Below, in pieces: positions 1-7,477 of a stretch of DNA of 10,917 nucleotides; within the stretch, counting starts at the first letter, position 1, and each line of letters starts with the position of its first letter. The translations under genes were made by a program, and so were the position numbers. Below the pieces are notes generated by a model. The model did not search any database. It saw only the letters and a program-made list of their open reading frames with translations, and was not told the origin of the DNA. The DNA is taken from contig JACQDO010000019.1 in NCBI GenBank assembly GCA_016201085.1, forward strand, positions 1 through 10,917. Reading direction: 5' to 3'. The stretch comes from Hyphomicrobiales bacterium (GTDB lineage: Bacteria > Pseudomonadota > Alphaproteobacteria > Rhizobiales > Xanthobacteraceae).

Positions 1-369
1 TCCAAGGGCATTTCGGCCGGCAAATCCAACAACACCTATCGCGGGCTGGTCTCGGCGCACCGCAAGGCGACGGGCGCGCGCAACTTCACCAACTGTGACT
101 CGCTGTTGATCGGCAACCAGTGCGGCGCGCATACGGTGCCTTACATCGAGGCGAAGAATTCGTCCGCGGTGTTCGAACACGAGGCCTCAACCTCGAAAAT
201 CTCCGAGGATATGCTGTTCTACTGCCAGCAGCGCGGCATGTCGGCGGAGGAGGCGACCGCGCTGGTGGTCAAAGGCTTTGTCAAGGACGTGTTGCAGCAG
301 TTGCCGATGGAATTCGCGGTCGAGGCGCAGAAGCTGATCTCGATCTCGCTTGAAGGAAGTGTGGGGTAG
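1..369 (+). CDS. sufB: SufB, Fe-S cluster scaffold subunit (C-terminal part)
   Basis: C-terminal 122 residues of SufB, the scaffold subunit that with SufC and SufD builds Fe-S clusters in the cytosol. The frame is open from base 1 and stops with TAG at 367-369; the start lies outside the window. The sequence follows the family closely: SKGISAGKSNNTYRG at the left edge, TNCDSLLIGNQCGAHT, then FEHEASTSKISEDMLFYCQQRG and the ending EFAVEAQKLISISLEGSVG. The Cys of NCDSLLIG (codon 94-96) corresponds to the assembly cysteine Cys405 of E. coli SufB, and the EHEA motif carries the His/Glu pair that acts with it (family knowledge). The C-terminus is complete, so the insert downstream has not damaged the protein. 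In related genomes sufC would be expected directly after it, whereas here a ParA-like gene begins 14 bases after the stop. Confidence 0.97.
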   Translation, partial: SKGISAGKSNNTYRGLVSAHRKATGARNFTNCDSLLIGNQCGAHTVPYIEAKNSSAVFEHEASTSKISEDMLFYCQQRGMSAEEATALVVKGFVKDVLQQLPMEFAVEAQKLISISLEGSVG

Positions 370-383
370 GGCGGGATATCCAA

Positions 384-1181
384 ATGAAAACTATTGCGAC
401 CATTAACTTTAAAGGCGGCGTTGGGAAAACAACCGTGACATGGTGTCTCGGTGACGTTCTGTCGACGTATTCGCGTTCGAAGGTCATTTTGTTCGACCTG
501 GATGCGCAGATGTCTCTGACACAGGCGATCGCATTGGACGCAGAGGGAAATTCGTCCGGAAAGTTTGCCTCATGGTACGAAAATGCAGCAGCACATGACA
601 AAACAATCTTTTCTGCATTACGAAAATTTCTTGAAACTGATCTGACCGGCTTTCAAGCTGATAACGGATTTGTCTTTCGGCTTGCAGAAAATTATCACTT
701 CGTTCCATCAACCGAGCAATTGTATTGGCTCGAACTTGAGGCGCCTGATCCTGGAAAGGGCAAGTTCTTCATTAAGAACTTACTTGGAAAAGTAGAAAAT
801 TCCGGCGCGTTGCCAAAATATGACTACGCGCTCTTTGATTGCCCCCCGTCGTTTACGATGCTGTCATATAGCGTTCTCACATCGTGCGACCTTATTCTTA
901 TTCCGTTTAATCCGGATTTCTTTGCGGCAAAGGGCGTGGGCCTATTAATTGCTGGCCTTCGGCATCGCATTCAACCACATCCCATTCCAAAATTGGCCGT
1001 ATTCGCAAACAGGGCGCGAACGTACGGTGGAGAGCCAACGAAACTAGCGCGGGCATGGATATCTGATGTTCGCGCGGCCTGCGACAACGTAAGCAATCAA
1101 ACCTCGTGGAGGAACTTGCGAACGTTAAGGAAGCGCTCCGGGAAACGTCGCGGCAATTGCTGCGTATTGAGAGGCGCGTAA
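384..1181 (+). CDS. ParA/MinD-family P-loop ATPase, C-terminus probably damaged
   Basis: A 265-residue ParA-type ATPase. Visible motifs are the deviant Walker A KGGVGKTT (residues 10-17, with signature Lys10), Walker A' LFDLDAQ (36-42) and Walker B LFDCPPS (150-156), followed by SCDLILIPFNPDFFAAKG (167-184), typical of soluble ParA proteins. I see no CxxC, so it is not an ApbC/Mrp-type Fe-S carrier. Such ATPases normally position plasmids, chromosomes or protein cargo on the nucleoid; the cargo here is unknown. The start is ATG 384, after a weak GGCGGGA, 14 bases past sufB. The family normally continues for several tens of residues after a segment like WISDVRAACD. Here the tail from about residue 240 is Arg-rich and low in complexity, while another frame becomes coding-like, so I infer a frameshift or deletion at 1095-1106. 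GC is low: the 60 bases from 601 count 22 G+C, against 41 for the 60 bases from 1681 in sufC. This suggests horizontal transfer. Confidence 0.85.
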   Translation: MKTIATINFKGGVGKTTVTWCLGDVLSTYSRSKVILFDLDAQMSLTQAIALDAEGNSSGKFASWYENAAAHDKTIFSALRKFLETDLTGFQADNGFVFRLAENYHFVPSTEQLYWLELEAPDPGKGKFFIKNLLGKVENSGALPKYDYALFDCPPSFTMLSYSVLTSCDLILIPFNPDFFAAKGVGLLIAGLRHRIQPHPIPKLAVFANRARTYGGEPTKLARAWISDVRAACDNVSNQTSWRNLRTLRKRSGKRRGNCCVLRGA

Positions 1182-1525
1182 CGGCAGCATTCCCATCGGC
1201 TATGAAAGCCAGTCGTGCTCAAACCAAACATTCCTCTTCCGAGAAAAGGCTTCGCCTTGATGAAGCTGCGGCGCAACAAGTCATTGCTAGCTTGAAAGAA
1301 AGAATATCAAAGGGCGAACAGATAGAAAGCCAACTCACGGACTATTCAGTGAAACCCAATCTCCAAATCATAGCGAGAATTCTTGGAATGACAAATGTCA
1401 AGCTTCCGCCAAAAGACGAGCTCGTGAGAAGAATATCGACGCGATTGCGACAAAGCGTATCCGTGACGACGGGATTCCACGAAGAAACGCGTGGCTACAC
1501 CGGTAGCGATGAAAAAGTACGATAG
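1106..1525 (+). CDS. Unrecognised small helical protein, possible partner of the ParA-like ATPase
   Basis: I do not recognise this 139-codon frame. With GTG 1106 as start it overlaps the parA-like frame by 76 bases; with ATG 1202 it would be 107 residues and not overlap. Neither start has a clear ribosome binding site. The stretch after the GTG, EELANVKEALRETSRQLLRI, looks like a real charged, coiled-coil-type helix, so coding probably begins at or before 1106. The protein may be the remnant of a longer one, or be joined to the ATPase by a frameshift. Residues 84-118 (PNLQIIARILGM, then PPKDELVRRISTRL) have the rhythm of a small helix-extended-helix or SAP-like motif; this is a guess from pattern. 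AGA and ATA codons (for example aga-ata-tca and aga-ata-tcg) are unlike the suf genes. Stop TAG is at 1523-1525, 23 bases before sufC. By position it is a candidate ParB-like or cargo partner, but no function is claimed. Confidence 0.6.
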   Translation: MEELANVKEALRETSRQLLRIERRVTAAFPSAMKASRAQTKHSSSEKRLRLDEAAAQQVIASLKERISKGEQIESQLTDYSVKPNLQIIARILGMTNVKLPPKDELVRRISTRLRQSVSVTTGFHEETRGYTGSDEKVR

Positions 1526-1548
1526 CGCGAACAAAAGAAGTGAAATAA

Positions 1549-2298
1549 ATGCTTGAAATCAAAAATCTGCATGCCGAGGTCGAGGGCAAGAAAATTCTCA
1601 ACGGCCTGACGCTGACCGTGAACAAGGGCCAGGTCGCCGCCATCATGGGCCCGAACGGCTCCGGCAAGTCGACGCTCGCCTATGTGCTCGCCGGCAAACC
1701 GGGCTACGAGGTGACCGAGGGCGAGGTGCTGCTCGACGGGCAGAACATCCTGGAGCTGTCGCCGGACGGGCGCGCCGCCAAGGGCGTGTTTCTTGCCTTC
1801 CAGTATCCGGTGGAAGTGCCGGGCGTCGCCACCATGACTTTCCTGCGCACCGCGCTCAATGCCCAGCGCAAGACGCGCGGCGAGGGCGAATTGTCGACGC
1901 CGGAATTCATGAAGCTGGTGCGCGACACTTCGACCAAGCTCGGCGTCAGCCAGGAGCACCTGCGGCGTGCCGTCAATGTCGGCTTTTCCGGCGGCGAGAA
2001 GAAACGCAACGAAATCCTGCAAATGGCGATCCTGCAGCCGCGCCTGGCGGTGCTCGACGAGACCGACTCCGGCCTCGACATCGACGCGCTGCAGATCGTG
2101 GCCGAGGGCGTCAATCGGCTGCGTTCGCCCGAGCGCTCGATGATCGTCATCACGCACTATCAGCGCCTGCTCAACTTCATCGTGCCCGACGTGGTGCACG
2201 TGCTGGCCAAGGGCCAGGTGGTCAAGACCGGCGGCAAGGAGCTCGCGCTCGAGTTAGAGGCCAAGGGTTACGCGCAATTCGTTGGCGAGGCAGCGTGA
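1549..2298 (+). CDS. sufC: SufC, ABC-type ATPase of the SufBCD complex
   Basis: A complete 249-residue SufC, the cytosolic ATPase that drives conformational change in the SufBCD scaffold. ABC motifs in order are Walker A GPNGSGKST (34-42), Q-loop Gln85 in AFQYPVEVPG, the SufC-type signature FSGGEKKRNE (146-155), Walker B LAVLDETDSGLD (166-177), and the switch His203 in ITHYQ. Length and sequence are normal for the family. The start ATG 1549 follows AGAAG at 1536-1540 with 8 bases between. This ribosome binding site lies in the AT-rich 23-base gap after the foreign insert, so it may belong to either. The stop TGA (2296-2298) shares its A with the sufD ATG, implying translational coupling. Confidence 0.98.
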   Translation: MLEIKNLHAEVEGKKILNGLTLTVNKGQVAAIMGPNGSGKSTLAYVLAGKPGYEVTEGEVLLDGQNILELSPDGRAAKGVFLAFQYPVEVPGVATMTFLRTALNAQRKTRGEGELSTPEFMKLVRDTSTKLGVSQEHLRRAVNVGFSGGEKKRNEILQMAILQPRLAVLDETDSGLDIDALQIVAEGVNRLRSPERSMIVITHYQRLLNFIVPDVVHVLAKGQVVKTGGKELALELEAKGYAQFVGEAA

Positions 2299-3611
2299 TG
2301 AACGTTGAACTGCGCCCAGTGAAAACGGAGGCCGAGCAGGCGCTGAGCGCCGCTTACGCGGCCGCGCGCGCGACGCTGCCGGGCAAGGGCGATGTCGCTA
2401 AACTGCGCGAGGACGCATTTCGCCGCTTCGAGACGCGCGGGCTGCCGCATCGCCGCGTCGAGGAGTGGAAATACACCGACCTGCGCGCCTTGCTGCGTAC
2501 CGCCTATCCGCTGGCGCCGGCCCCCGATGCCGCGGCGCATGCGCGGGTGCGGAACGCCGGAGGAATACTGAGCGGGGTCGACCGCCGCCGGCTGGTGTTC
2601 GTCGACGGCGTCTTCGCGCCGGAGCTGTCCGATCTGACCGAGGAAGAGGGGCTCACCATCGGCTCGCTGGCCGAAGCTTTGACCAAGGCCGACCCGCTGG
2701 CCATGGCGCGGGTCGGCAAGACCTTTGTCACCGAGGACGTCGCCGTCGCGCTCAACACCGCGCTGATGGGTGACGGCGCGGTCATCCGAGTTGCCGCCGG
2801 TGTTGCGCTCCGGCGGCCGATCCATCTGATTTTTGCCGCCAGCAACGACCGGCCGAGCGCAAGCTACGTCCGTTCGCTGATCGTGATCGAGAAGGGCGCC
2901 CACGCCACGATCGTCGAGAGCTACGAGGGCGCCAGCTCCCAGATCAATAGCGCGCTTGAGCTTATCGTCGGCGACGACGCCCGCGTCGACACCATCAAGA
3001 TCGCGAGCGGCCGCGCATTGCAGATGGCGAGCCTGCTGGCTACCGTCGGCGCGCGCGCGATCTTCAACAGTTTCGCCTTTGCCGCCGACGCCGAGCTGGT
3101 GCGCACGCAAAGCTTCATCCGCTTTGCCGGCGAGGATACCAAGGCCGCCGTGCGCGGCGTCAGCCTGCTGCGCGGACGCGATCATGTCGACAACACGCTG
3201 CTGATCGAGCACGCCGCGCCGCATTGCCAGAGCCGCGAGCAGTTCCGTGCCGTGCTCGACGGCGACAGCCGCAGCGTTTTTCAGGGCAAGATCGTGGTGC
3301 AACCGCACGCGCAGAAGACCGACGCCAAGATGCTGACGCGCGCGTTGCTGCTGTCGGAAACGGCGGAAGCCGACAACAAGCCGGAGCTGGAAATCTTTGC
3401 CGACGACGTGGTCTGCGGCCATGGCGCCACCGCCGGCGCGCTCGATCCGGGCCTCAAGTTCTACCTTATGTCGCGCGGCATTTCCGAGAAGGAGTCCGAG
3501 GCGTTGCTGATCGAGGCCTTCATCGACGAGACGATCGAAGAGATCGCGCATGAGGGCATTCGCGACGCGCTGAAGTTTGCCGCGCTCAAGTGGCTGGGGG
3601 TGCGCTCATGA
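2298..3611 (+). CDS. sufD: SufD, scaffold subunit of the SufBCD complex
   Basis: A complete 437-residue SufD, paralogue of SufB and partner of SufB and SufC in Fe-S assembly. The N-terminal helical domain carries the typical EEWKYTDL (residues 55-62). The SufBD beta-helix follows, and the conserved CGHGATAG near the C-terminus holds His375, equivalent to the functional His360 of E. coli SufD (family knowledge). ATG 2298 is chosen because it overlaps the sufC stop as TGATG; a GTG in frame three bases earlier is less likely. The stop TGA at 3609-3611 overlaps an ATG at 3608 in another frame, an ATGA arrangement usual for coupled suf genes. Here that ATG leads into a repeat-derived short frame rather than directly into sufS. 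Confidence 0.97.
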   Translation: MNVELRPVKTEAEQALSAAYAAARATLPGKGDVAKLREDAFRRFETRGLPHRRVEEWKYTDLRALLRTAYPLAPAPDAAAHARVRNAGGILSGVDRRRLVFVDGVFAPELSDLTEEEGLTIGSLAEALTKADPLAMARVGKTFVTEDVAVALNTALMGDGAVIRVAAGVALRRPIHLIFAASNDRPSASYVRSLIVIEKGAHATIVESYEGASSQINSALELIVGDDARVDTIKIASGRALQMASLLATVGARAIFNSFAFAADAELVRTQSFIRFAGEDTKAAVRGVSLLRGRDHVDNTLLIEHAAPHCQSREQFRAVLDGDSRSVFQGKIVVQPHAQKTDAKMLTRALLLSETAEADNKPELEIFADDVVCGHGATAGALDPGLKFYLMSRGISEKESEALLIEAFIDETIEEIAHEGIRDALKFAALKWLGVRS

Positions 3612-3623
3612 CGCGGACTTCCT

Positions 3624-3670
3624 GTCCCGGGCGCACTGCAGCACGCAGTGCTGCTGTGCAGAACCGGGAC
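3624..3670. repeat. 47-bp palindromic repeat, unit 1 (REP-like)
   Basis: The ends are gtcccgg (3624-3630) and ccgggac (3664-3670), a 7-bp inverted repeat. Inside is a hairpin with arms 3633-3644 and 3648-3659 (12 bp, one mismatch) and the 3-base loop gca. It has the same length and layout as unit 2. Intergenic repeats of this style are common in Bradyrhizobium-type genomes (recalled, not searched). It lies between sufD and sufS and would form a strong hairpin in the operon mRNA. Confidence 0.85.
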
Positions 3671-3695
3671 CGTTACGGGCACCGAATTTGGAAAG

Positions 3696-3742
3696 GTCCC
3701 GGATCAGCGATGCAGCATTGCATGCTGCATCGCGTCCGGGAC
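3696..3742. repeat. 47-bp palindromic repeat, unit 2 (REP-like)
   Basis: The ends are gtcccgg (3696-3702, its g being the second of ggtcccgg) and ccgggac (3736-3742). The inner hairpin is perfect: arms gcgatgcagcat (3707-3718) and atgctgcatcgc (3722-3733) with loop tgc. It is separated from unit 1 by 25 bases, giving a two-unit BIME-like cluster. It ends 11 bases before the sufS start codon, so mRNA folding could affect sufS translation. Confidence 0.85.
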
Positions 3743-3753
3743 AAGAGGCAGTA

Positions 3754-4995
3754 ATGCATCCGGCAGTCAGCAACGGCAGCTACGACGTCGGGCAAATCCG
3801 CAAGGATTTCCCCGCGCTGGCCATGCAGGTCTATGGCAAGCCGCTGGTCTATCTCGACAACGCGGCCTCGGCGCAAAAGCCGCAAGCCGTGCTCGACCGG
3901 CTCACCCGGGCCTATACGTCGCAATACGCCAACGTGCACCGCGGCCTGCATTATCTGGCCAACGAAGCGACCGAGGCTTATGAGGCGGCGCGCGAGAGCG
4001 TGCAGCGATTCCTCAATGCCTCGCGCAAGGAAGAGATCGTCTTCACGCGCAACGCCACCGAGGCGATCAATCTGGTGGCCGCCACTTTCGGACGCGAGCG
4101 CATCCGGGCGGGCGACGAGATCGTGCTCTCGATCATGGAGCACCATTCCAACATCGTACCGTGGCATTTCCTGCGCGAGCGCCATGGCGCGGTAATCAAA
4201 TGGTCGCCGATCGACGAAGACGGCAATTTCCTCATCGACGAGTTCGAAAAGCTGCTGGGGCCGCGCACCAAAATGGTGGCGATCACCCAGATGTCGAACG
4301 CGCTCGGCACCGCGGTGCCAGTGAAAGAGGTGATCAAGCTCGCGCATGCGCGCGGCATTCCGGTGCTGGTCGACGGCGCACAGGGCGCGGTGCATCTCGA
4401 CGTGGACGTGCGCGACCTCGACGCCGATTTCTACGTGATGACCGGCCACAAGCTGTACGGCCCGACCGGCATCGGCGTGCTGTATGGCAAATACGATCTG
4501 CTCGCCGCCATGCCGCCGTTTATGGGCGGCGGCGAGATGATCCGCGACGTGTTCGAGGACCGCATCACCTATGGCGAACCGCCGCATCGCTTCGAGGCCG
4601 GTACCCCGGCAATCGTGCAGGCAATCGGACTGGGCGCCGCCATCGACTACGTCAATTCGGTCGGCAAGGCGCGTATCCGCGCGCACGAGAACGTGCTGGT
4701 CAAATACGCGCATGAGCGGCTGGGCGCGATCAACTCGTTGCGCATTATCGGCAATGCGGCGAACAAGGGGCCTATCGTCTCGTTCGAGATCAAGGGCGCG
4801 CATCCACACGATGTCGCCACCATCATCGACCGTTCGGGTGTTGCCGTGCGCGCCGGCACCCATTGCGTGATGCCGTTGCTCGCCCGCTACGGTCTCACCG
4901 CCACCTGCCGCGCATCGTTCGCCATGTACAACACCAAGGATGAGGTGGACGCGCTCGCCGCCTCCCTGATCAAGGCGCAGGAATTTTTCGCATGA
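3754..4995 (+). CDS. sufS: SufS, cysteine desulfurase (class II)
   Basis: A 413-residue PLP-dependent cysteine desulfurase that releases sulfur from L-cysteine as a protein persulfide for SufBCD. Visible features are LVYLDNAASAQKPQ near the N-terminus, EHHSN with PLP-stacking His130 or 131, the Schiff-base Lys233 in MTGHKLYGPTG, and the persulfide Cys371 in RAGTHCVMPLL, the short-loop form of class II (SufS/CsdA) enzymes. ATG 3754 is chosen because AGAGG (3744-3748) precedes it by 5 bases and the protein then has the usual length. The frame is open further back to a TTG at 3577, but that extension only reads the repeats and sufD in the wrong frame. The stop TGA overlaps the next ATG at 4992 (ATGA). 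No SufE or SufU partner is seen in this window. Confidence 0.97.
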   Translation: MHPAVSNGSYDVGQIRKDFPALAMQVYGKPLVYLDNAASAQKPQAVLDRLTRAYTSQYANVHRGLHYLANEATEAYEAARESVQRFLNASRKEEIVFTRNATEAINLVAATFGRERIRAGDEIVLSIMEHHSNIVPWHFLRERHGAVIKWSPIDEDGNFLIDEFEKLLGPRTKMVAITQMSNALGTAVPVKEVIKLAHARGIPVLVDGAQGAVHLDVDVRDLDADFYVMTGHKLYGPTGIGVLYGKYDLLAAMPPFMGGGEMIRDVFEDRITYGEPPHRFEAGTPAIVQAIGLGAAIDYVNSVGKARIRAHENVLVKYAHERLGAINSLRIIGNAANKGPIVSFEIKGAHPHDVATIIDRSGVAVRAGTHCVMPLLARYGLTATCRASFAMYNTKDEVDALAASLIKAQEFFA

Positions 4996-5396
4996 CGGAA
5001 AACAGCCACGCGACCGAAAACACCTCGGTGGCCGAGAAGCCGCCGGAGAACGCCGCGATCAGCGGCTCCTCCGCGCTAACGCAGGAGGAGATCGACCGGC
5101 TCAGCGACGGCATCGTCGCCGCCATCAAGACCGTATTCGATCCGGAAATTCCGGCCGACATCTACGAACTCGGGCTGATCTACAAGATCGACATCGGCGA
5201 GGACCGGGCGGTGAAGATCGACATGTCGCTCACCTCGCCCAACTGCCCGTCGGCGCAGGAACTACCGATCATGGCGGAGAACGCCGTGGCCAGCGTGCCG
5301 GGTGTCAAGGAGGCCAAGGTGGAGATTGTCTGGGATCCGCCTTGGGACCCGAGCCGCATGTCGGACGAAGCGCGGCTGGTCTTAAATATGTGGTGA
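4992..5396 (+). CDS. sufT: SUF-associated DUF59/MIP18-family protein (SufT-like)
   Basis: A 134-residue MIP18/DUF59 protein of the kind encoded in suf operons and thought to help maturation or transfer of Fe-S clusters. About 30 N-terminal residues are charged and low in complexity. The domain then runs from residue 31, with DPEIPADIYELGLIY (50-64), the TSPNCPSAQELP loop with Cys85, and VEIVWDPPWDPSRMSD (110-125), all typical of the family. The start ATG 4992 overlaps the sufS stop, so translation is likely coupled. The stop TGA is at 5394-5396. A small inverted repeat aatatgt/acatatt (5385-5391 and 5398-5404) straddles the stop and is too weak to call a terminator. Confidence 0.93.
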   Translation: MTENSHATENTSVAEKPPENAAISGSSALTQEEIDRLSDGIVAAIKTVFDPEIPADIYELGLIYKIDIGEDRAVKIDMSLTSPNCPSAQELPIMAENAVASVPGVKEAKVEIVWDPPWDPSRMSDEARLVLNMW

Positions 5397-5429
5397 AACA
5401 TATTAGATAGAGTGGAGACGAGGACCGAA

Positions 5430-5813
5430 ATGGCGACTGCCCGACCCAGACCCCAGGTGATGCGGCTGACCGATGCCGCCGCAATGCGCATCAAGGACGT
5501 GATGGCGCGCGCGCAACAGCCGGTCGCCGGCGTGCGCGTCGGCGTCAAGAACGGCGGCTGCGCCGGCATGGAATACACCATGGAATACGCCACCGCGGTC
5601 AATCCGACCGACGAGGTGGTGGAGGACAAGGGCGTCAAGATCCTGGTCGATCCCAAGGCGGTGCTGTTCCTGCTCGGCACCGAGATGGACTACAAAACGG
5701 AAAAATTGTCGGCCCAGTTCGTGTTCAAGAACCCGAACCAGACCTCAGCCTGCGGCTGCGGCGAATCCGTGCAGCTTGCGCCGGCCAAGGATGACGCTGC
5801 CGAGGCGCGGTAA
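5430..5813 (+). CDS. A-type Fe-S carrier (IscA/SufA/HesB family)
   Basis: A 127-residue A-type carrier that binds a transient Fe-S cluster and passes it to target apoproteins. The three conserved ligand cysteines are present: Cys44 in NGGCAGMEY and Cys108 and Cys110 in SACGCGES. The Asp/Ala-rich tail after residue 117 is not conserved. ATG 5430 is preferred because AGG (5421-5423, in GACGAGG) lies 6 bases upstream; an in-frame GTG at 5412 would add six residues. The gap to the previous gene is 33 bases. Whether to call it sufA or iscA cannot be settled from sequence alone; its place in the suf operon favours the SufA role. Confidence 0.95.
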   Translation: MATARPRPQVMRLTDAAAMRIKDVMARAQQPVAGVRVGVKNGGCAGMEYTMEYATAVNPTDEVVEDKGVKILVDPKAVLFLLGTEMDYKTEKLSAQFVFKNPNQTSACGCGESVQLAPAKDDAAEAR

Positions 5814-5833
5814 ATCCGCCGCGGGCTTCGCCC

Positions 5834-6217
5834 ATGGATGCCGACACTATCCGCGATCTATTCGTTGAATTAGGGATGGTGCATGTCCGCCGCATGTTCG
5901 GCGGCGCCGGCATCTATGCGGGCGGCGTGATGTTCGGACTGGTGTCGGACGGTCTGATCTATCTCAAGGCGGATACCGAAACCGTGCCGGCCTTCGAGCG
6001 CGAGAAGTGCGCGCCGTTCGAATATGCGACCAAGAAAGGCAAAAGGGCGGTGATGTCCTATTGGCGGCTGCCCGACCGGCTCTATGACGATCCCGCCGAA
6101 CTCGCGCAATGGGCCAGGCAGGCGATCGCGGTTGCGCGCCGGAACGCGGTCAAAAAACCGGCGGCCAAAAAGTCGGCGAAAAAGCCCCGGACAAAGCGAA
6201 AAAAAGCGAAGCGATAA
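5834..6217 (+). CDS. TfoX N-terminal-domain protein with basic tail
   Basis: A 127-residue protein with a TfoX/Sxy N-terminal domain: RRMFGGAGIYAGGVMFGLV (19-37), LIYLKAD (41-47), then PFEYATKKGKRAVMSYWRLP. It lacks the second, C-terminal TfoX domain of gamma-proteobacterial Sxy competence regulators, so a competence role should not be assumed. The last 23 residues are almost only Lys, Arg, Ala and Pro, like a histone-H1-style DNA- or RNA-binding tail. It starts at ATG 5834, 20 bases after the A-type carrier, and is probably the last gene of the suf transcript. I recall the same neighbour order in Bradyrhizobium. The stop at 6215-6217 lies only 3 bases from the convergent GGDEF stop, with no terminator between. 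Confidence 0.88.
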   Translation: MDADTIRDLFVELGMVHVRRMFGGAGIYAGGVMFGLVSDGLIYLKADTETVPAFEREKCAPFEYATKKGKRAVMSYWRLPDRLYDDPAELAQWARQAIAVARRNAVKKPAAKKSAKKPRTKRKKAKR

Positions 6218-6220
6218 AGC

Positions 6221-7291
6221 TCAGGCCACCTGCACCGAGGCGCCGGTGGCGGCTACTTCCGGATCGGTCTCGCACATCACGCGATTGCGGCCGTGCCGCT
6301 TGGCGGCATAGAGGCAGGCATCGGTGCGCTCGATGAAGGTCTGCGCGCTGTCGCTCTTGTGCAGCGTGGCGACGCCGACCGAAATCGTCACCCGGCCGAG
6401 ATGTTCGCCGGTCGAGCGTTTCATGAGTTCCTTGGTCATCACCGCGCGGCGGATGTGATCGGCAACCGTAATCGCCGAGCGCAGCACGGTATTGGGCAGC
6501 ACGATGGCGAATTCCTCGCCGCCGTAGCGCGCCGCGGTATCCTGGCCCTTGACGTTCTGCTTCACCGACATCGCCACCAGACGCAGCACCTGGTCGCCGG
6601 TGAGGTGGCCGAAGCTGTCGTTGAAATTCTTGAAATGATCGATGTCGGTCATCATCAGCGACAGCGGCTCGTTCTTGGCGCGCGCGTCGGCGATGGCGTC
6701 ATCGAGCGTGGTGTCGAAGAATTTGCGGTTGGCGAGCTGGGTCAGCGGATCGGTCAAGCTCTCGGTGCGCACCGCTTCGAGGTTTTCCTGCAGCGTGTCG
6801 ATTTCCTGCTTGGAGGCGTGCAGCCGCTGTTCCAGCTTCTGGTTGGAGGCTTCCATCTCCTTGGCGGTCTGCACCAGGCCTTCGACAATGGCGCGCAGGC
6901 CCTCGCGGTCCTTGGAATTGCCGAGCTTCTCGCTCATGTCGGCGAGGCTCTCGGTGTAGCTGTTGGCCGAGCCGGCGGCGGCGTCGATCATCGCCATCAC
7001 CTGCTCGATTTCGCCCATCACCTGATGGCCGACCTTGTCGATGCGGTCGGTCAGCCGGGTCGGCGACAGATAGGTTTCGTAGATCTGCTCGATATCGGCG
7101 TCGGTCAGCGCGCCGCTCTGCTGCAATGTCTCGTTGATCTTCTGGTTGAGCGAAGGGTGGTAGCCGGTGGCGTAGGCGTACCAGACCTCGTAATTGCGCG
7201 GGCTGGCTGCCTGGCGCAGCGCCTTGATCTGGCCAAGCGCGATTTCAGCGAACGCCATCGTGCGTTCGTGTTCAGCGGCATGCCCAGTCAT
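6221..7291 (-). CDS. GGDEF-domain diguanylate cyclase
   Basis: A 356-residue soluble enzyme predicted to make cyclic di-GMP from two GTP. An N-terminal helical region (about 10-125, with NYEVWYAYATGYHPSLN at 33-49) is followed by a coiled coil (about 141-178) that probably dimerises the enzyme. The GGDEF domain begins at SLTDPLTQLANRKFF, with the metal-site Asp216 in MTDIDHFK and the active loop RYGGEEF (255-261). The inhibitory I-site RxxD is KGQD here (248-251), so product inhibition may be weak. ATG 7291 is chosen because the family-like sequence begins there and a G-run lies 8 bases upstream. A GTG at 7366 in frame would add 25 residues and has no ribosome binding site. No signal peptide or membrane segment is seen. 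It lies downstream of the helicase on the same strand, 186 bases away. Confidence 0.92.
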   Translation of the reverse strand: MTGHAAEHERTMAFAEIALGQIKALRQAASPRNYEVWYAYATGYHPSLNQKINETLQQSGALTDADIEQIYETYLSPTRLTDRIDKVGHQVMGEIEQVMAMIDAAAGSANSYTESLADMSEKLGNSKDREGLRAIVEGLVQTAKEMEASNQKLEQRLHASKQEIDTLQENLEAVRTESLTDPLTQLANRKFFDTTLDDAIADARAKNEPLSLMMTDIDHFKNFNDSFGHLTGDQVLRLVAMSVKQNVKGQDTAARYGGEEFAIVLPNTVLRSAITVADHIRRAVMTKELMKRSTGEHLGRVTISVGVATLHKSDSAQTFIERTDACLYAAKRHGRNRVMCETDPEVAATGASVQVA

Positions 7292-7477
7292 CTGGCAAAC
7301 CCCCGTCCCGTCAGCGGCGGACTTGAAATGTCCCTCCGCGCGCGGCCGGTGGGCCGAGCGCGTCACGCCAGATGAGACGGTATGGCAGGGAGGTGAATCA
7401 GCGGTAAATTAGCGATACAGCTCGCCGCTATAATTTGCCGCACGCCTAGCGAGTATACAGGAAAAATTCGTCTAGAA
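7292..7477. other. Gap between helicase stop and GGDEF start
   Basis: These 186 bases contain no gene that I can support. The half nearest the helicase (about 7400-7477) is AT-rich for this genome. It contains TATACT and TATAGC on the minus strand, either of which could be a -10 element, but neither has a convincing -35 element at the right distance. A short inverted repeat tagcg/cgcta (around 7410-7430) has no T-run, so I do not call a terminator. Confidence 0.5.

Follow-up and report, generated by a model that had tools for sequence, protein, structure and literature searches.

Probable decayed copy of a mobile, ParA-led two-gene module between sufB and sufC of a Hyphomicrobiales bacterium

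ParA-type motors have mostly been studied as fixed housekeeping or plasmid parts. The closest described systems to the locus discussed here are the ParA/Soj partition ATPases (ParABS) and the cargo-positioning pairs such as McdA-McdB, in which one ParA is combined with a small partner gene. Two genetic arrangements are also relevant, namely integron gene cassettes and the small accessory genes found in operon gaps. Parts of one paper (PMC12444791) mention genome-wide cassette insertion at attG sites in E. coli and report that integron arrays hold many anti-phage cassettes. The present locus, a ParA-type gene followed by a partner gene termed X, shares features with each of these systems. No description of the ParA-X pair was found among the literature matches listed, as judged by titles and abstract openings, which is not a claim of absence from print.

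The stretch of DNA analysed, termed the window, is contig G000:C104 of 10,917 bp; the host assembly comprises 526 contigs and is 88.6% complete. The gene order is sufB (partial), insert, sufC, sufD, sufS, an FeS_assembly_P protein and an Fe-S_biosyn protein. We also note a palindrome in the sufD-sufS gap (window 3611-3756) with perfect 12-nt arms at 3707-3718 and 3722-3733, which may be a dispersed repeat. The features of the sufB-sufC region are as follows.

1..369, + strand: 3' part of sufB, open frame to a TAG at 367-369; the contig start falls inside the gene
370..1548, + strand: insert between sufB and sufC, set off by its GC3; all 37 other junctions that could be read in the genus lack it
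384..1181, + strand: truncated ParA-type ATPase ORF (ORF1) with PF13614; residues 1-240 (384-1103) match homologues
1098..1108, + strand: deletion joint, placed within a few bases; the codon of ParA residue 240 is complete at 1103, and X begins at 1106 with residue ~17
1106..1525, + strand: 5'-truncated partner gene X (ORF2), with 61 homologues besides itself
1549..2298, + strand: intact sufC, TIGR01978 match of 352 bits (cut-off 212.8)

The insert of 1.18 kb fills the interval from the sufB stop to the sufC start, as the first-pass annotation had placed it; 14 nt separate the sufB TAG (ending at 369) from the ParA ATG at 384, and 23 nt separate the stop of X (ending at 1525) from the sufC ATG at 1549. 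The lower GC content claimed for it is borne out, with values of 0.478 for ParA (384-1103) and 0.496 for X versus 0.604, 0.641 and 0.670 for sufB, sufC and sufD, respectively, and a GC3 of 0.48 versus 0.85-0.87 in the suf genes. The remark that the insert is marked by AGA and ATA codons holds for X, which has four of each in 139 codons, and hardly for ParA (none and one in 240), as compared with none and one in 809 codons of the suf genes. Consensus scans of 250-1700 gave neither a promoter-like nor a terminator-like site on the + strand, in agreement with the earlier statement that no terminator was seen; two promoter-like and four terminator-like sites were found on the minus strand. Judging from this arrangement, the insert is plausibly co-transcribed with suf. 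Direct repeats are absent from window positions 340-1560, and the two imperfect inverted repeats of the insert region (609-625/675-691 and 1062-1075/1525-1538) do not span both ends. The insert carries no recombinase, as had been noted, and a family scan of the 10 other window ORFs gave no replication, mobilisation or integrase family.

ORF1 has the nucleotide-binding domain and motifs of the ParA/MinD deviant-Walker ATPases. The PF13614 match scores 101.1 bits against a curated cut-off of 27, and KGGVGKT at residue 10, DLDAQ at residue 38 and LFDCPPS at residue 150 are kept, which we take to be the deviant Walker A motif with its signature lysine, Walker A' and Walker B, respectively. The top Foldseek matches are Soj (2bej/1wcv) and McdA (6non), with an identity to solved chains of 13-24% among the 50 matches listed. 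The domain, the motifs and the fold are shared with the ParA/Soj ATPases of ParABS. The 20 closest homologues share 81-91% identity with ORF1 along most of its length; 19 have 286-287 aa, the exception being P0004 with 255 aa. In the homologue alignment the window ParA collapses after about residue 240; P0004 does so shortly after, and we note that its C-terminus is shifted. The genome search returned the same limit, residues 1-240 or nt 384-1103, beyond which the ORF is out-of-frame read-through.

Residues 241-287 of ParA and residues 1 to ~16 of X are missing at the joint, where the frames of the two genes differ. The loss amounts to ~170-190 nt, or a computed 186 nt if X starts as in P0134; it is an estimate, as intact DNA of the same close subgroup was not at hand. 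In a related copy, L002, the second gene matches from 6855 and ParA ends at 6858, such that the start of X overlaps the ParA stop. The lost part of ParA corresponds to the strand 244-252 and the helices 257-263 and 268-286 in the model of homologue P0002 (mean pLDDT 72.7), and the window protein, which matches 240 of 287 residues, lacks the C-terminal strand and helices of a complete domain. All three nucleotide motifs are kept and no stop lies ahead of the deletion. Comparison with the ParA of L002 over 240 codons gave pN 0.17 and pS 0.82, synonymous sites being close to saturation, which suggests constraint on ParA through most of its history, and damage that is either recent or an assembly fault. 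The window ParA and X are parts of one internally deleted module. The first-pass description of a two-gene cassette stands as far as a two-gene module is concerned, and needs correction in that the two genes are not intact; neither the internal deletion nor the integron setting of a related pair was visible to that annotation. The option of a decayed remnant, raised at the same time, is supported.

The protein database records the window's own X with a later start only (P0121, 107 aa), and the aligned homologues carry 11-26 additional N-terminal residues, 16 in P0134. In the model of an intact homologue (mean pLDDT 73.9, pTM 0.43), residues 5-44 form a single long helix, and a short C-terminal part is likewise helical. 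A Pfam scan of the window X gave no match above a cut-off, and a fold search against solved structures returned nothing significant, the best match having an E of 0.54. In a count by eye, 15 of 61 X clusters, the window's excluded, have a longest contig of the same length as that of one of the 120 ParA clusters listed, in favour of a conserved pair. The intact module in the window's own subgroup is a ParA of ~287 aa directly followed by a helical partner X of ~150 aa.

The module was further compared among 11 loci read as DNA, namely the window, L002-L009, L079 and L080; L010 and L011 were excluded, as they match over 27 and 37 residues only. An ORF of 133-223 aa lies directly 3' of ParA in 10/10 other loci. 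By tblastn, the second gene of L002 is a clear relative of the window X and that of L008 a weak one (E about 5e-6), and those of L003-L007 and L009 gave no match at 1e-3; L079 and L080 were outside this set. The hhalign comparison of the window X group with the second genes of L003-L007 does not reach significance (probability 1.4%, E 0.036), and similar short basic stretches near the C-terminus are seen in the alignment of the two groups. A ParB family was not found by Pfam in the window X, in eight second-gene proteins or in that of L079, and one second-gene protein has a weak Rho_N match (E 0.038). In sequence terms, ParA is the firm common part of the pairs. We also note that other copies look damaged as well, P0004 among them: L008 (around 5968) and L080 each have an out-of-frame ParA start, and one in-frame stop is counted in L009 460-1311.

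The pairs differ from ParABS in that Pfam gives no ParB match for X and in that they adjoin host genes or cassettes. They resemble McdA-McdB and other cargo-positioning pairs in the combination of ParA with a small partner gene and in the fold match to McdA. Unlike McdAB-type pairs, they have no carboxysome or organelle genes recognised beside them, and X is without a significant fold match; the neighbours, as far as they could be named, are housekeeping, cassette or restriction genes without a common theme. From general ParA biology, the natural reading of X is a helical activator that may link ParA to cargo or DNA.

The slot between sufB and sufC was compared across 43 genomes of the genus, 40 with a SufC match at E<=1e-60 and three without. 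Besides the window, 39 have SufC, and 37 of these are readable; G042 is cut by a contig end, and G003, where SufC begins at base 12 of its contig, was not included. Over its sufB part, the window shows 90.2-97.5% identity to the corresponding stretch of 37 genus genomes. This junction comparison had been set beforehand as the test that could refute a foreign origin. The ParA-X pair occurs in 0/37 other readable junctions, a negative outcome of that test; ancestral suf content, in which the pair would be old in the operon, is ruled out by the same count. The reading of the insert as a foreign, ParA-type element colinear with suf is supported. The accompanying premise that sufB and sufC are usually adjacent is not true of the genus, where the gap exceeds 30 bp in 29/37 readable genomes (eight at <=30 bp, 12 at 31-200 and 17 above 200, with a maximum of 427). 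Other small ORFs, the longest of 72-102 aa, are present in 17/37 junctions. Such gap ORFs elsewhere in the genus weaken the premise that the two genes should adjoin, and mark the slot as one where accessory genes settle.

Several of these gap ORFs could be grouped by eye. A conserved family of ~100 aa is found in 12/37 gaps (L034, L037, L047-L051, L054, L060, L061, L141 and L148), a small membrane-protein ORF in three genus genomes (L044, L057 and L145), and the remaining 2 of the 17 are of neither type. One ORF of the ~100-aa family and one of the membrane type were scanned, and neither has a Pfam match at 1e-5.

The distribution of the module is sporadic. A close ParA was found among 100 relatives in the window genome only, the best other match reaching 56 bits versus 501. 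X occurs in 1/385 genomes of the class and the ParA family in 1/398 genomes of the phylum, in both cases the window's own. Around other copies, the family is found in 1/194 genomes in the order of G837 and 1/125 in the family of G840, each being the centre itself, and in 3/235 genomes in the order of G843, two of them in addition to the centre. These two were the only new members found by genome searches for further loci; the class, phylum, order and family samples overlap in genomes and are not summed. At least 1022 protein clusters match the ParA profile at E<=1e-60 (7998 candidates scored).

In a comparison of eight sequences (the window, L002-L007 and L079, with L008, L009 and L080 outside), the window ParA is 75% identical to that of L002 and 49-56% to the other six. 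The ParA of L007, from an Acidobacteriaceae MAG, is 80-82% identical to those of L003, L004 and L005, from Burkholderiales, Lysobacterales and Nitrosomonas MAGs, which are 80-91% identical to each other. The GC content of the pair is below that of its flanks in 11/11 loci. These comparisons support ParA-led pairs that probably move horizontally and occur sporadically across phyla.

The settings of the 11 copies are listed below; in 8/11 the adjoining upstream gene shares the strand of the pair.

Window: sufB upstream, same strand
L002: DAHP synthase upstream, same strand
L003 and L007: upstream gene divergent
L004: integron cassette ORF upstream, same strand
L005: nrdB upstream, same strand; order nrdA-nrdB-[pair]
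L006: phosphoglucomutase family gene upstream, same strand
L008: purQ upstream, same strand; order purQ-[pair]-purL
L009: at a contig end
L079: nuoD upstream, same strand; order nuoD-[pair]-NuoG-like
L080: NotI-like restriction gene upstream, same strand

The pair splits the genes of one pathway in three loci, namely sufB-sufC, purQ-purL and nuoD/NuoG-like. The NuoG-like gene, which is followed by NuoI, scores 362 bits with the NuoG model (cut-off 470) and higher, 476 bits, with a formate dehydrogenase model, also under its cut-off. Among 29 relatives of G1362, the host of the nuo copy, 27 have both flanks, and the junction gap is 15-278 bp (stop codon included) in all 27 readable. The purQ-purL junction was readable in 18/29 loci from relatives of G843, and four of the 18 (L128, L132, L135 and L136) hold 665-1081 bp of other sequence. 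The pair fits tightly in sufB-sufC and nuo, and ~0.7 kb of other sequence lies between the pair and purL in L008. An extra small reading frame is seen there behind the pair (L008 7460-8171), HicB antitoxin-like by eye. Like small accessory genes in operon gaps, the pair shares its slots with unrelated sequence, found in 17/37 sufB-sufC and 4/18 purQ-purL gaps; it differs from them in being a ParA-led pair seen in several phyla.

The L004 copy is an integron cassette. An integron integrase is encoded at 3595-4725 on the minus strand (478 bits against a cut-off of 265), attC sites lie before the pair at 5613-5672 and 5901-5960 and after X at 7275-7343, and the ORFs are in line between them, the cassette measuring ~1.4 kb. 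The bottom-strand folds of the two attC before the pair are clear (z -5.14 and -5.82), and in the one after X the outer cores are paired and the fold is modestly better than shuffles (z -1.60). Cassette status is well supported for L080, where attC-like sites flank the pair, both deviating from the core consensus at a single position; the site upstream, picked by eye, folds with z -3.38 and the one downstream with z -1.49. It is partly supported for L003, which has core-type sites at both ends, with DNA behind X that does not fold as attC (z -0.28). The similarity of L003 to L004 (76%) ends 1 nt beyond the core-type site that overlaps the stop of X, and the leaders of the two differ, as the 5' similarity starts only 13 nt before ParA. 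We also note that L080 is possibly a restriction-rich cassette array.

A core-type site is present within 120 nt upstream in 5/11 loci (L003, L004, L005, L006 and L080), where the background rate is 0.088 per 120 nt; in L005 and L006 it has no partner site behind X, and the other six loci, the window among them, have none upstream. In contrast to integron cassettes, none of the copies in housekeeping operons, that of the window included, shows an attC. At the ends of the window insert neither an attC nor a core site was found as an RYYYAAC...GTTRRRY pair, even with one mismatch, and 1526-1600 folds no better than shuffles. No integron integrase was matched in G000 at E<=1e-20, in an assembly of the completeness given above. 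Cassettes that lie outside integrons are not known to need a resident integrase at present. Integrases over the cut-off were found in 2/11 host genomes, that of L003 (on another contig) and that of L004; weaker matches in six more mean little, as 4/14 control genomes give them too. The ParA proteins of L003 and L004 are 54-55% identical to the window's, the cassette copies belonging to other subgroups. Since the window copy has no attC, and gaps of 14 and 23 nt leave no room for one, we only infer that it arrived as a cassette.

Taken together, we read the insert as a decayed, horizontally acquired copy of the ParA-X module with no suf-linked function, at a probability of roughly 0.66. The module would have arrived between sufB and sufC as a cassette without its own promoter, and the window copy would be transcribed from the suf promoter, not selected and decaying. 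The internal deletion, which removes the last strand and two helices of ParA and the start of X, implies that the encoded pair is probably non-functional. For the intact module, general ParA biology suggests that ATP-bound ParA dimers would coat the nucleoid, the long helix of X would bind these dimers and stimulate hydrolysis, and the C-terminal part of X would hold a cargo or DNA target. The intact module may accordingly be pictured as a small partition, positioning or defence cassette for which a borrowed promoter would be enough, unrelated to Fe-S assembly.

Whether the intact module is specifically an anti-phage or anti-plasmid defence cassette, a serious alternative that is compatible with the mobile origin, is a question on which we lean tentatively against, at odds of about one to two. 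Restriction genes lie near the pair in 2/11 loci; in L002 a type III methylase and a restriction enzyme are located downstream, and in L080 the surroundings of the pair (2730-7098) contain a NotI-like restriction gene along with a DNA methylase and an REase-ARP nuclease. A BrnT-type toxin gene follows the pair in L006, and integron arrays are reported rich in anti-phage cassettes in the parts of the paper cited above (PMC12444791). In the other eight loci no defence gene was identified beside the pair, the neighbours being outside the PADLOC scan, and the PADLOC models match ParA or X poorly, with no good match and a best E of 0.0002 for ParA over 39 residues.

A broader proposal, which we regard as speculative and rather unlikely, is that ParA-X forms a cross-phylum, recombinase-free family of selfish or defensive cassettes that are integron-borne, settle in essential operons and act on invading or competing replicons. 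ParA-X would then destabilise invading replicons or capture their DNA on the nucleoid, rather than segregate host DNA, and would borrow the promoters of the essential operons in which it settles.

For the window copy itself, the likeliest alternative to a decayed, acquired module is an assembly artefact, in which the insert or the internal deletion would be a chimeric join in a metagenome-type assembly. The fragmented and incomplete assembly, the contig start inside sufB and the GC shifts at both insert ends are in its favour. However, the flanking sufB and sufC point to a single genus (best matches 97.5% and 92%), the joins lie between stop and start codons, a placement for which chimeras have no reason, and a comparable insertion with both flanks in place exists in another assembly (nuo). 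We consider an artefact improbable overall; the deletion alone could be one.

A little less probable still is a partition locus left behind by a plasmid, phage or ICE that has otherwise been lost. ParA does belong to the partition superfamily, but the 964 plasmid and 47 phage records that match the window ParA are all below 60% identity (24-31% in the 15 matches listed for each), the viral contigs gave two matches at 23-27% in a pattern scan that reaches close relatives only, and the scan of the 10 other window ORFs gave no replication, mobilisation or integrase family. Least probable is a working accessory pair for Fe-S assembly, with the shortened ParA and X active and tied to suf expression as the first-pass annotation had considered, for the colinearity with and closeness to both suf genes, the intact Walker motifs without a stop before the deletion and the missing + strand terminator are set against the loss of the last 47 residues of ParA, including its last strand, and of the X start, and against the 10 other loci, where no suf gene was recognised beside the pair among the ORFs identified and the neighbours include DAHP synthase, nrdAB, purQ/purL, nuoD/NuoG-like and integron cassettes.

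The window copy, being broken, is of little weight by itself. It leads to a ParA-led module that is widespread, mobile and apparently uncharacterised, a small module of unassigned function with at least 1022 related protein clusters. The gaps of core operons, such as sufB-sufC, nuoD-nuoG and purQ-purL, serve as landing slots for accessory genes. If true, travel as an integron cassette combined with parking in essential operons would be a new route of spread for ParA motors.
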